This document shows positions 52,686 to 56,877 of a DNA stretch of 64,000 nt, piece after piece. The stretch lies in NCBI RefSeq assembly GCF_007747995.1, contig NZ_CP036276.1, positions 2,657,001-2,721,000 of the forward strand, in the 5' to 3' direction. The position numbers were made by a program, and so were the translations under genes. The notes beneath the pieces are model-generated. The model ran no database searches and had not been told where the DNA came from. It saw only the letters and a list, made by a program, of their open reading frames with translations. Position 1 is the first letter of the stretch; each line of letters starts with the position of its first letter. This stretch comes from Symmachiella dynata. Lineage in GTDB: Bacteria; Planctomycetota; Planctomycetia; Planctomycetales; Planctomycetaceae.

Positions 52686-53552
52686 GTGCTCATCGCTGTG
52701 GTGTTGCTGATTGGTGGTGGGGCGTTGATGGTGTGGTTGCCGTATCATCGCAATCAAGTGGTTATGGCTGAGATTGAGAAACTGGGAGGAAGAGCAGTAA
52801 CAGAGATCGTTCGTCCTGCGTGGATACCGGATGCAATAGACGACCAATACTTGGCAGTATTCGAGAGAGTATGCTGGATTGATTTGTTCGATACCCAAGT
52901 CACTGACGCAGGGCTTGAATGTCTCCGAGGACTGACCAACCTTGAAACTCTGCTCCTTAACAGCACCCAAGTGAGTGATGCGGGACTTGAGCATCTCCAA
53001 GCGCTGACCAACCTCGTTGACTTTTCGCTCGCCGACACCCAAGTCAGTGACGCAGGGCTTATACACCTTCGAAAACTGAATAATCTTGATTATTTATCTC
53101 TCGACAGTACACAAGTCACTGACGCTGGGCTTGAGCATCTCCGAAGGCAAACAAAGCTAACGGTCCTTGATCTCGACGACACCCAAGTCAGCGACGCTGG
53201 ACTTAAGCATCTCCGAGGGCTGACCACACTTAGAGTCGTGTGGCTCCGCAACACACAAGTCAGTAATGCTGGATTAGAACATCTCCGTGAATTGATCAAC
53301 GTCAATCGCCTCTCGCTTACAAATACTCAGATCAGCGATGTCGGATTGGAGCATCTCAAAGGATTGACCAACCTTGAATCCCTATCGCTCGACAGCACTC
53401 GAGTCAGTGATGTTGGGCTTGAACATCTCCAAGGTCTGACAAATCTTCAGCGTCTATTCCTCTTCAAAACCAACGTTACGAATGCAGGAATCAAAAAACT
53501 CCAGAAAGCCCTACCTGATTGCGAAATCGAATGGACACCACCATCGGAATAA
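52686..53552 (+). CDS. Leucine-rich-repeat membrane protein, array copy 1 (canonical start lost)
   Basis: One N-terminal helix (VLIAVVLLIGGGALMVWLPY) is followed by about nine 24-residue leucine-rich repeats of the form TQVSDAGLEHLRGLTNLESL. Homology to copies 2 and 3 begins upstream, at 52638, with the residues TDSTPKSRLPRTGTL. There the start codon position reads ATC instead of ATG, so translation would need ATC or begin at GTG 52686 with a shorter cytoplasmic tail. It lies 34-82 bp after the aconitase stop. LRR domains bind proteins; the target is unknown. It may be a pseudogene in practice. Confidence 0.7.
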   Translation: MLIAVVLLIGGGALMVWLPYHRNQVVMAEIEKLGGRAVTEIVRPAWIPDAIDDQYLAVFERVCWIDLFDTQVTDAGLECLRGLTNLETLLLNSTQVSDAGLEHLQALTNLVDFSLADTQVSDAGLIHLRKLNNLDYLSLDSTQVTDAGLEHLRRQTKLTVLDLDDTQVSDAGLKHLRGLTTLRVVWLRNTQVSNAGLEHLRELINVNRLSLTNTQISDVGLEHLKGLTNLESLSLDSTRVSDVGLEHLQGLTNLQRLFLFKTNVTNAGIKKLQKALPDCEIEWTPPSE

Positions 53553-53584
53553 CGCCGAACCACTGACACAAATGAGCGTCCCCC

Positions 53585-54535
53585 ATGACCGACTCTGCCC
53601 CCAAAAGCCGCCTACCACGCACGGGCACGCTGGTGCTCATCGCCGTGGTGTTGCTGATTGGCGGTGGGGCGTTAATGGTGTGGTTGCCGTATCATCGTGA
53701 GCAACAGGTGATTGCTGAGGTCGAAAGACTTCGTGGACGAACGGGAATTACTATCGTTCGTCCTTTCTGGGTCCCGGATGCGATCGATGATGAGTATTTG
53801 GGGGTGTTCGAGAGAATAGCTTTTGTTGAATTCTCCAATCCCCTGGTCGGCGATGCGGGACTTGAACATCTTCATGGGCTCACACACCTTGAATCCCTTT
53901 CCCTTTCAGAGACCCAAATCACGGATGTAGGGCTTAGGCATCTTCGGGGGTTGACCAACCTTCAGTGGCTAGTCCTCGATAATACGCGGGTTCGCAATTC
54001 CGGTCTTCAGCACCTCCGACCGCTAATCAAGCTGAAATACCTATATCTCAACAATACGCAAATCAGTGATGAGGGGCTTGAGCACATCCGAGGGTTAACG
54101 AAACTCGAAGAACTGTCACTAAATGGCACTCAGGTCAGTGATGTCGGGATTGAACATCTACGCGGGTTAATTAACCTGAACTGTCTATGGCTTGGCAACA
54201 CCAAAGTCAGCGACGATGGTCTAGTGCATCTTCAGGGGTTAACCAATCTTGCCGACATCTCCTTTAGCAGCACTCTAGTCGGTGATGAGGGCATTGAACA
54301 TATCCGAAAGCTAACTGACCTAATGTACCTGTCGTTCGATGACACTCAAGTGAGTGATAGCGGGCTTGAACGCCTGCAACGACTAACCAACCTTCGCTCC
54401 CTAAACGTCAGCAACACAACAGTTACACGAACAGGAATCGAAAGGCTCCACCAATCTCTACCCAATTGTATAATCAATTGGACGCCCCGAGTGAAAAGAC
54501 TCCAAATCAATGACATAATTGAGCGTTTACCATGA
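53585..54535 (+). CDS. Leucine-rich-repeat membrane protein, array copy 2
   Basis: The 316-residue protein begins MTDSAPKSRLPRTG, then one helix and about nine 24-residue LRR units (for example TQVSDVGIEHLRGLINLNCL). It ends RVKRLQINDIIERLP. Its last base pairs overlap the start of copy 3 (ATGA, 54532-54535), so the two are translationally coupled. The repeat type is the bacterial GALA-like/LRR_6 kind, with the N-terminus inside and the LRR domain outside. Paralogous to its neighbours; N-termini are much more similar than the LRR parts. Confidence 0.78.
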   Translation: MTDSAPKSRLPRTGTLVLIAVVLLIGGGALMVWLPYHREQQVIAEVERLRGRTGITIVRPFWVPDAIDDEYLGVFERIAFVEFSNPLVGDAGLEHLHGLTHLESLSLSETQITDVGLRHLRGLTNLQWLVLDNTRVRNSGLQHLRPLIKLKYLYLNNTQISDEGLEHIRGLTKLEELSLNGTQVSDVGIEHLRGLINLNCLWLGNTKVSDDGLVHLQGLTNLADISFSSTLVGDEGIEHIRKLTDLMYLSFDDTQVSDSGLERLQRLTNLRSLNVSNTTVTRTGIERLHQSLPNCIINWTPRVKRLQINDIIERLP

Positions 54536-55230
54536 CCGACTCCGCCCAAAAAAGCCGTCTACCACGCACAGGCATACTGGTGCTCATTGCTGGGGTGCTC
54601 CTAATTGGCGGTGGAGCGTTGATGGTGTGGTTGCCGTATCATCGGGAGCAGAGGGTGAGTGCTGAGTTTCAAGGGTTGGGCGGAACTACAGGAGCAAGGA
54701 TCTTTCGTCCCGCCTGGATTCCAGATGCGGTTAGTGATGAGTATTTAACCGTGTTCGAGAGAGTAAGCATAGTTGATTTATCTGAGACCCACGGCAGTGA
54801 TTTGAGGCTTGTGCAACTCAGGGGGCTGACCATGCTTAAGGTACTAGATCTCCTTGGCACCCAAGTGAGTGATTCAGAGCTTGAGCATCTTCGAGGACTG
54901 ACAAATCTTGAGAACTTGCAGCTCAGGTATACCCAAGTCTCTGATGCTGGGCTGGAACATCTCCGAGGACAAAAAAATCTTGCGTACTTGGCGCTCGGCG
55001 ACACGCAAATTAGTGACGCAGGGCTTGGGCATCTTCGAGGACTGACAAACCTTCAACATTTAGCTCTTGACAACACTAAAATCAGTGATGTTGGCCTAGA
55101 GCACCTCCGTGGGCTGACCAACCTTGGGTACTTGTTTGTCGAAGACACATATGTCACGCAAGCAGGGGTCGATAAACTCCAGAAAGCCCTACCCGATTGT
55201 CGTATCAGTTGGACACAATCATCGGAATAA
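54532..55230 (+). CDS. Leucine-rich-repeat membrane protein, array copy 3 (shorter)
   Basis: The 232-residue protein begins MTDSAQKSRLPRTGI, then the same membrane helix and about six LRR units (for example TQISDAGLGHLRGLTNLQHL). It ends KALPDCRISWTQSSE, almost like copy 1 (KALPDCEIEWTPPSE). The lower repeat number relative to copies 1 and 2 fits loss or gain of 72-bp units by recombination. It is coupled to copy 2 by the ATGA overlap. Confidence 0.78.
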   Translation: MTDSAQKSRLPRTGILVLIAGVLLIGGGALMVWLPYHREQRVSAEFQGLGGTTGARIFRPAWIPDAVSDEYLTVFERVSIVDLSETHGSDLRLVQLRGLTMLKVLDLLGTQVSDSELEHLRGLTNLENLQLRYTQVSDAGLEHLRGQKNLAYLALGDTQISDAGLGHLRGLTNLQHLALDNTKISDVGLEHLRGLTNLGYLFVEDTYVTQAGVDKLQKALPDCRISWTQSSE

Positions 55231-55413: not shown

Positions 55414-55632
55414 CAGAGTCCCGTTCACGGGACTTCCCCCGCGGAACGCAGGTATTCGCCCCGCCGTTTACGGCGGGGAAACTAGCGTCACCTCGCGCCG
55501 CTGAGCCTCGTTCACGAGGCTTCTCGCTGTACGGCTTGAGCCACGGCCGCGCGGTTTTAGCAGAACGCAAGCCCCCGCCGTAAACGACGGGGCGAATACC
55601 GCTGTGCGGAAAACCCGGTCAACCGGGCTGGC
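55414..55632. repeat. Structured 220-bp repeat, copy 1
   Basis: It contains a series of hairpins: AGTCCCG-TTCA-CGGGACT, CCCCGCCG-TTTA-CGGCGGGG, GCCTCG-TTCA-CGAGGC, CCCCGCCG-TAAA-CGACGGGG and CCCGG-TCAA-CCGGG. The first and last thirds are also inverted copies of each other (GGTATTCGCCCC at 55451-55462 pairs with GGGGCGAATACC at 55589-55600), so the whole can fold as one long stem. A direct copy lies at 56658-56877 with about 16 differences. No open frame of note. It could be a mobile palindromic element or encode a structured RNA. Confidence 0.85.
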
Positions 55633-55685
55633 CTCAGGCGCTGGCCGGAGATCGGGCTGAGAGGAACGCTTCGCTCAAATTCTCT

Positions 55686-55715
55686 TTGCCACCTAGGACC
55701 GCAATATGCTATAAT
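55686..55715 (+). promoter_or_regulatory. Sigma-70-type promoter, probably giving a leaderless mRNA
   Basis: TTGCCA (55686-55691) and a perfect TATAAT (55710-55715) are 18 bp apart. The expected transcription start, about 7 nt after the -10 box, falls at or next to the ATG at 55722, and no ribosome-binding site fits in between. Confidence 0.7.
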
Positions 55716-55721
55716 TTCAGC

Positions 55722-55967
55722 ATGAACCCAACCGCTAACAATACCGCATTCGACCGAGCGACTGATCCGTTGCTGAGCATTCTCAGTCCTGACCAGGCGC
55801 ACCGGATTATTGATTTTCACGCCGATGCCGAAATGCAGGCACGCATCGAAGTTCTTGCTCACAAAGCGAACGAGGGTGAACTGACGGACGAAGAGCGGGC
55901 CGAATACGAAGGCTACGCGCAGGCCAACCGGTTCATCGCCGTCTTGCAAGCCAAGGCGCGACGATGA
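55722..55967 (+). CDS. Small acidic protein of the type usually paired with an HNH nuclease
   Basis: 81 residues (MNPTANNTAFDRATDPLL...). The core ILSPDQAHRIIDFHADAEMQ, then LTDEERAEYEGYAQANRFIA and LQAKARR, belongs to a family that, from memory, is often encoded directly before a small HNH endonuclease. Here the next gene, overlapping by ATGA (55964-55967), is a short membrane protein instead. Soluble and helical; it may be a partner or regulator. It lies between the two copies of the structured repeat and has a strong promoter. Confidence 0.7.
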   Translation: MNPTANNTAFDRATDPLLSILSPDQAHRIIDFHADAEMQARIEVLAHKANEGELTDEERAEYEGYAQANRFIAVLQAKARR

Positions 55968-56176
55968 GTGCACGATCGACCGCTAATTTCCTGACCATCA
56001 TGCTGATGATCATGTCTGCCGTATGGTTGATGCTGGGATATCTCGAACCCGCTGTTTCGCGAGAGACGCGAAATATGGGGGGATATACGAATTTGTCGTT
56101 GGGTGTTGGTGCCGTTATTTTCTTTTGGATGGCGAAGCGGGAGCCTCGGACGAAACCGGACAACGACGCTAAATGA
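55964..56176 (+). CDS. Small two-helix membrane protein
   Basis: The 70-residue protein has two hydrophobic segments (TIMLMIMSAVWLMLGYL and LSLGVGAVIFFWMA) and a charged tail (KREPRTKPDNDAK). The start overlaps the stop of the previous gene by four bases, so the two are co-translated. No family recognised. It occupies the place where related gene pairs would have an HNH nuclease. Confidence 0.6.
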   Translation: MSARSTANFLTIMLMIMSAVWLMLGYLEPAVSRETRNMGGYTNLSLGVGAVIFFWMAKREPRTKPDNDAK

Positions 56177-56203
56177 TTCCGTCTTGCTAGTATCCCACTT
56201 AGA

Positions 56204-56584
56204 ATGGTGACCGCCTTAGGTGTAGCTGTGTTAAGCATTGAAGAAGTTGGCGGGGGATGGTTCGGCGGCGGAGTCTACGCTACAACGATTTCGATCGATT
56301 GCGCATCCATTATTCAATTCAAATCGGATTGGGCGGAAGCATTGCGTTGGATTGCTGAGTGGCGTGAGCGCCGAGTTGGCCAATCAGGAGACGTGACGTT
56401 TTTGGTCAGGTCTGAAACGACGGCGGGATCAATGGGCGCGTTCAAGGCGTTTATTGGCGAACAATTGCTAAACAATCCATTGCCTCCTACTGAATTGCAA
56501 GGTCACCGAGTCGATGTTGCACTTTTCTTGCTACCGGAGATGGAACAGTATTTGGATCTCATTGTATATCCGAATGGCAATTGA
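56204..56584 (+). CDS. Small hypothetical protein between the structured repeats
   Basis: 126 residues from ATG 56204, no strong ribosome-binding site. The body (WAEALRWIAEWRERRVG, AFKAFIGEQLL, LPPTELQGHRVDVALFLLPE) looks like a soluble alpha/beta protein. There is no signal peptide or known motif. It ends 74 bp before the second structured repeat. It could be a passenger of a repeat-bounded segment; function unknown. Confidence 0.5.
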   Translation: MVTALGVAVLSIEEVGGGWFGGGVYATTISIDCASIIQFKSDWAEALRWIAEWRERRVGQSGDVTFLVRSETTAGSMGAFKAFIGEQLLNNPLPPTELQGHRVDVALFLLPEMEQYLDLIVYPNGN

Positions 56585-56657
56585 GCGGCGCGCATTTTAT
56601 GACTTTGGATCGCTCTGCAACGCGAAATGAATGAACGTTTTTTGGGCGCGCTCGATA

Positions 56658-56877
56658 CAGAGTCCCGTTCACGGGACTTCCCCCGCGGAACGCGAGTATT
56701 AGCCCCGCCGTTTACGGCGGGGAACACAGCATCACTTCGCGCCGCTGAGCCTCGTTCACGAGGCTTCTCGCTGTACGGCTTGAGCCACGGCCGCGCGGTT
56801 TTAGCAGCACGCAATCCCCCGCCGTAAACGACGGGGCTAATATCGCTGCGCGGAAAACCGGGTCAACCGGGTTTGGC
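56658..56877. repeat. Structured 220-bp repeat, copy 2
   Basis: A direct copy of 55414-55632. In the long-range stem a C:G pair of copy 1 (55457:55594) is an A:T pair here (56701:56838), and a neighbouring G:C becomes G:T. These changes keep pairing (if read as RNA, A:U and G:U). The central part, including GCCTCG-TTCA-CGAGGC, is identical. Confidence 0.85.

Follow-up and report, generated by a model that had tools for sequence, protein, structure and literature searches.

The two repeats in the 64-kb window (the whole stretch of DNA that was analysed) are, on their sequence, probably non-autonomous, internally shortened members of a palindromic element family linked to a Y1 transposase. One such family is found at ~24 places in the 7.77-Mb genome, a number that reflects our own grouping of 36 end-level matches, and the window repeats are two of its members. 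The same genome also contains a longer relative that encodes its own transposase, so the repeats are most likely mobile DNA and not functional RNA. The initial annotation had offered a structured non-coding RNA, a mobile palindromic element or a protein-binding array; the second of these options is well supported by the dispersal of the family and by the presence of a transposase between the same ends.

Copy 1 and copy 2 lie exactly where they had been described (55414-55632 and 56658-56877); a genome search returned copy 2 at 93% identity to copy 1 over 214 bases, and re-reading of the bases bore out C at 55457 and G at 55594 in copy 1, A at 56701 and T at 56838 in copy 2, and the adjacent change from G:C to G:T. 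The local hairpins and the long-range stem between first and last thirds, also described earlier, are both present in the predicted fold. Comparison with shuffled sequence, a check the initial annotation had proposed, showed that both copies fold far better than chance: z = -7.0 for copy 1 as DNA and -7.6 as RNA, none of 200 shuffles doing as well in either case, and z = -7.4 for copy 2 as DNA, again with 0 of 200. The parts of the two copies are listed in Table 1; right-end hairpin 3 is missing from both, as it is from copy D. A search of plasmid records gave no match. Just before copy 1 (window 52686-55230) lie three adjacent, similar leucine-rich-repeat ORFs of 288, 316 and 232 aa, the middle one of which is shown to carry a Pfam LRR.

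Table 1. Parts of the two repeat copies, in window coordinates
Feature	Position	Strand	Basis
Copy 1, whole element; left end complete, right end without hairpin 3	55417..55629	+	sequence and family end matches
Copy 1 left end hairpin 1, loop TTCA	55417..55434	+	sequence
Copy 1 left end hairpin 2, loop TTTA	55459..55478	+	sequence
Copy 1 left end hairpin 3, loop TTCA	55503..55522	+	sequence
Copy 1 inner palindrome GGCTTGAGCC	55533..55542	+	sequence, end alignment
Copy 1 right end hairpin 2	55573..55592	-	sequence
Copy 1 right end hairpin 1, TTGA loop on - strand	55612..55629	-	sequence
Copy 2, whole element; deletion type as copy 1	56661..56873	+	sequence and family end matches
Copy 2 left end hairpin 1, loop TTCA	56661..56678	+	sequence
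Copy 2 left end hairpin 2, loop TTTA	56703..56722	+	sequence
Copy 2 left end hairpin 3, loop TTCA	56747..56766	+	sequence
Copy 2 inner palindrome GGCTTGAGCC	56777..56786	+	sequence, end alignment
Copy 2 right end hairpin 2	56817..56836	-	sequence
Copy 2 right end hairpin 1, degraded	56856..56873	-	sequence

The family was defined by a covariance model of one end, which, as had been suggested, was built from genome-wide copies (24 ends of this genome, being 24 of the 30 listed ends in alignment A1 after omission of six without a full hairpin 3) and which returned the 36 end-level matches. Elsewhere the model matched 9 ends in G001 and 14 in G002, both of the same genus, 9 in G014, of the same family, and a single weak end in G033 (E 0.0099); it detected no family ends in the other 54 of 59 related genomes, with the proviso that over 40 genomes were searched with stricter filters that lose weak matches. 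Clear copies are thus confined to 4 of the 59, the genome under study included. From the outside inwards, an end comprises hairpin 1, a small stem, GTATTAG, hairpin 2, a variable spacer, hairpin 3, TTCTCGCTG and GGCTTGAGCC, and the second end of an element is an inverted, imperfect copy of the first. Left ends in this genome begin AGTC and right ends AGCC, AACC or ACGC (one end of the ACGC type is listed one base late), and the seven copies that lack the window-type deletion (C, F, G, I, M, N and P) measure 260-268 bp. Loops of hairpin 1 have the form TTN(N)A in 40 of the 41 ends in which the stem was found, and the TTTA loop of hairpin 2 is invariant in all 24 aligned ends; under strict pairing, 13 of 40 hairpin 2 stems fall in a shifted register, and hairpin 3 loops have the expected form in 30 of 36. 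Relative to the ends the middle can point either way: of the 11 copies in which both hairpins 3 are legible, 5 have it in one orientation and 6 in the other, as scored by eye. Inspection of the element flanks by eye revealed no target motif, and overlap with ORFs is mixed, 8 of 19 family places overlapping no ORF of at least 120 aa in a mechanical count, so that intergenic position was given no weight as evidence.

The link to a transposase is provided by a single locus, L031. The genome has eight PF01797 matches, of which only L031 sits between detected family ends; the other Y1 genes were therefore rejected as the driver. The L031 element spans 705 bp, from a left end at 6260666 to a right end at 6261370, and is the only family place in this genome with the gene; a lone right end lies 122 bp upstream of this transposase copy (G000, 6260413-6261370). 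Its 141-aa product bears NHVH, WQ and YIRNQKQHH (a Y---Q--HH motif), stops 15 residues past the HH motif, and passes both the Pfam Y1_Tnp model (84.2 bits, cut-off 23) and the NCBIfam IS200/IS605 model (79.5, cut-off 55). It resembles the ISDra2 and ISHp608 transposases in sequence, and its predicted fold (mean pLDDT 83.0) matches them as well; every one of its 30 PDB matches with E <= 0.001 bears the title of a transposase. G001 and G002 carry family ends yet have no close transposase (no match at 1e-10), and the place of the transposase is occupied in both by one right end with no gene.

Close relatives of L031 are present in 4 of 196 other genomes (G119, 51% identity, or 46% in a full-length alignment; G190, 59%; G124, 49%; G080, 50%), in one more of 392 genomes sampled from the phylum (G301, 53%), and in one named record, a Terriglobia MAG of the Acidobacteriota (L069, 59%). 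All six relatives, 49-59% identical, are flanked by inverted hairpin arrays, the stems of which differ. Only L031, L069 and L078 display three clear hairpins at each of the two ends; the others (L133, L075, L076 and L077) have two or three per end. Together with L031 the six form one clade in the tree (support 100/99), within which L031, L069 and L076, with GTTYAC hairpin tops, group with support 95/91, and L133, L075, L077 and L078, with CTTYAG tops, with support 92/84. The exceptions are one L069 hairpin that reads GTTTTAGC, one L077 hairpin with a TTAA loop and one L078 hairpin paired in another register. As read from these genes and their ends, the loop-closing pair (GTTYAC or CTTYAG) follows the transposase clade, and this correspondence is new. 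Two of the seven genes are probably inactive, since the L076 protein lacks the part with the Y motif and L069 (1501-1950), although its hairpin ends are intact, carries F where the catalytic tyrosine would align.

These arrangements bear on the proposal that the repeats are a protein-binding array or a REP-like host element, such as gyrase, IHF or terminator sites, to which a transposase gene lies close by chance. REPs are known for such roles, as described in PMC3733652 and PMC6006769, but the gene sits between two inverted family ends, six homologous genes are similarly flanked, and the restriction of clear copies to so few related genomes is a poor fit to a host element. We consider the array option very improbable.

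Whether pairing in the repeats is under selection was judged separately for the short hairpins and for the long-range stem. The hairpin sample held 42 ends, 30 from this genome and 12 from G002 and G014. At least two Watson-Crick pair types occur at 5 of 7 positions in hairpin 1 (42 ends), 3 of 8 in hairpin 2 (35 ends) and 4 of 7 in hairpin 3 (33 ends), figures that are not counts of events because changes are inherited. Paired cells number 274 of 294 in hairpin 1, the outermost pair accounting for 9 of the 20 broken cells, and 274 of 280 and 230 of 231 in hairpins 2 and 3, the latter two fractions being favourable because rows were preselected by text patterns, which kept 35 of the 42 ends for hairpin 2 (TTTA loop required) and, for hairpin 3, 33 of 42 (those with certain loops whose 3' arm begins with CG[AG]). 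Selection on structure is thus supported for the short local hairpins.

For the long-range stem the informative part is the GTATTAG segment, because the hairpin 2 sequences in its two arms, each itself a palindrome, pair on that account. The segment was compared across 17 copies that have both arms (11 from this genome, 4 from G002 and 2 from G014); the two-armed place R (1889293-1889540) was left out on account of its degraded left end. It deviates from consensus at 27 columns, of which one is concerted (in copy 1) and 26 are one-sided, the latter representing fewer than 26 independent events because the left-end variant GTCATAG is common to five copies (F, M, N, O and one of G014), and including four columns from a G014 segment that was probably aligned out of register. 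Three other copies also have the TTCG variant of copy 1, on one side only. In 14 copies the spacers between hairpins 2 and 3 display no excess likeness within a copy (mean local score 4.43 within copies, 4.55 between). Arms are slightly more alike within copies than between in all three regions tested in the 11 copies of this genome (0.622/0.599, p 0.0045; 0.614/0.589, p 0.008; 0.804/0.765, p 0.025), a weak excess that shared subfamily history could explain without pairing. On the one-sided changes and the spacer comparison the long-range stem was rejected as a conserved RNA structure. The earlier reasoning from preserved pairing to selection on structure therefore stands for the short hairpins, by their covariation, and falls for the long-range stem; the compensatory-change argument is lost, the 17 copies showing the very lack of covariation in that stem that had been named beforehand as its refutation. 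A concerted change seen in two copies can mislead: in 17 copies the signal is nearly gone for the long-range stem and is kept for the short hairpins.

The sister species G001 has both window copies in the corresponding places, but each has lost its middle. In its copy 1 the left-end hairpin 1 runs into the right-end hairpin 2, in its copy 2 the centre is lost, and place G looks shortened likewise on match coordinates. These losses disfavour a conserved role of the whole fold. At places C and M, G001 lacks the element plus some flank, and at D likewise by coordinates; a clean empty site was obtained at none of the five places compared in G001 (O, C, M, G and D). Because flank is missing along with the element at C, D and M, insertion is not proved, and deletion in G001, instead of insertion here, is possible at these three places. 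G001 thus has short, centre-deleted forms at C1:782676, C2:1121597 and C2:1122802; the palindromes of this genome at these places are long, as though palindromes were handled differently in the two species. A 90-bp insertion in G001 at window position 56187/56188, absent from the window and bounded by inverted ends (TTTCAAAACCC ... GGGTTTTGAAA), is perhaps another small mobile element.

A structured non-coding or regulatory RNA, selected for its long-range stem and local hairpins, would be in keeping with the strong RNA fold of copy 1, the one concerted stem change and the slightly greater likeness of arms within copies that was seen in three regions. We regard it as highly unlikely, given that 26 of the 27 deviating columns are one-sided, that the spacers are no more alike within copies than between them, that copies adjoin a transposase gene, and that an Rfam scan of the window gave 0 matches at gathering score. 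An RNA with a host function is unsupported, G001 having lost the middle of both window copies.

A different alternative is that the concerted change of copy 1 is a true compensatory pair, kept by selection because the whole element forms a DNA cruciform or a long hairpin that the transposase uses. In its favour, the right end of copy 1 in G001 retains CTAATACC, which makes the right-side change a derived one in the lineage of the window; the left side, the site of the other change, is deleted in G001. The inverted-copy relation of the arms and their within-copy excess likewise agree with it. Against this, the one-sided occurrence of TTCG in three other copies indicates that the variant is tolerated unpaired, the middle takes either orientation in nearly equal numbers by eye, and template switching, as treated in PMC8604942 and PMC8794818, can mimic compensation. 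A compensatory pair of this kind is accordingly improbable, less remote though it is than the RNA or the host element.

The preferred reading, that of mobile DNA, suggests the following pathway. In single-stranded DNA each end would fold into hairpins with TTNA-type loops; the transposase would recognise the hairpins, cut near hairpin 1 and move or copy the segment, like the TnpA of IS200/IS605 and REP-linked TnpA. By this analogy we infer mobility and cleavage of the family. Hairpins of IS200/IS605 lie on one strand at both ends, whereas the ends here are inverted, and cleavage may therefore follow another scheme. The inverted-copy relation of the ends would also let the arms recombine or undergo template switching, which could at times make them alike and flip or delete the middle. 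The concerted change in copy 1 would then be a product of such an exchange, or a coincidence, and is no proof of a selected long-range RNA stem. In SELEX experiments described in PMC8266576, a REP with a TTTA loop needs the T, T and A of the loop. Template switching is described as homogenising arms and inverting spacers (PMC8604942) and as able to mimic compensatory changes (PMC8794818).

Systems of this class are already known, as REP/REPIN, IS200/IS605 and TIR-flanked Y1 genes. With IS200/IS605 elements such as ISDra2 and IS608 the L031 element shares a Y1 HuH transposase of the same predicted fold, a length of ~700 bp and hairpins near the ends, and L031 has the features of that superfamily (Y1_Tnp/IS200 domain above curated cut-offs, NHVH, YIRNQ and Y1 fold); unlike IS200/IS605, the family has ends that are long mutual inverted copies with several hairpins, a hairpin 1 at the edge of the conserved part, and no target motif visible by eye. 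As in REP/REPIN-RAYT (TnpAREP) systems, dispersed inverted hairpin pairs outnumber one transposase gene, and TTNA-type loops recall the Marinomonas REPs described in PMC8266576, but hairpin 1 lacks a GT[AG]G foot (30 ends, by eye) and L031 reads YIRNQKQHH and not the class 2 Y---NP, so that neither REPtron hallmark is present. Y1 genes with terminal inverted repeats that form repeat families are known from TIRtrons/TIRYTs, described in PMC3733652 as Y1 genes between long, in some cases self-complementary, terminal inverted repeats with copies that make up a dispersed family, and the L031 element has this organisation. According to the account in PMC6006769, 20 of 26 TIRYTs belong to subclass 2.1 with helix-turn-helix tails, unlike the short L031 protein, which has the Y---Q--HH motif and no such tail domain.

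In its WQ and Y---Q--HH motifs L031 agrees with TnpAY1 subclass 1.2 as described in PMC6006769, from which it differs in having NHVH and not DH[IV]H. The subclass is characterised there by a conserved C-terminal domain and, generally, by the lack of terminal IS200-type secondary structures; judged by its tail length and hairpin ends, the L031 element departs from that description, its ends being multi-hairpin and its tail shorter than in the 1.2-like L032 and L033 of the same genome, which fall in a separate clade. The class 3 features (W[TA], a YV[VI]-EQ-type motif and a CnGA foot) are absent, L031 having WQ and YIRNQ, with the foot judged by eye only. A subclass-1.2-like Y1 gene at L033 (1367-2162; G000 near 1408904) is flanked by a different inverted hairpin set, and L093 of G003 is likewise flanked by inverted hairpins; structured ends may be wider among such genes than described. 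New here is a Y1 lineage in which the Y---Q--HH motif goes together with multi-hairpin inverted ends and a dispersed family of repeats; no earlier description of the family was found in the literature by title or start of abstract, although supplementary lists might name it.

Tentatively, the Y1 lineage with subclass-1.2 motifs may possess a REPIN-like system of its own, with up to three inverted TTNA-loop hairpins per end and gene-free spread in this phylum and the Acidobacteriota, in which loop-closing pair and transposase change together; the case for it is close to even. If true, that co-change would be a natural record of how hairpin recognition switches. The seven related transposases with their two loop types would form a ready set for studying how Y1 enzymes choose single-stranded hairpins, and what appeared to be a signal of RNA structure becomes a testable mobile-DNA system.
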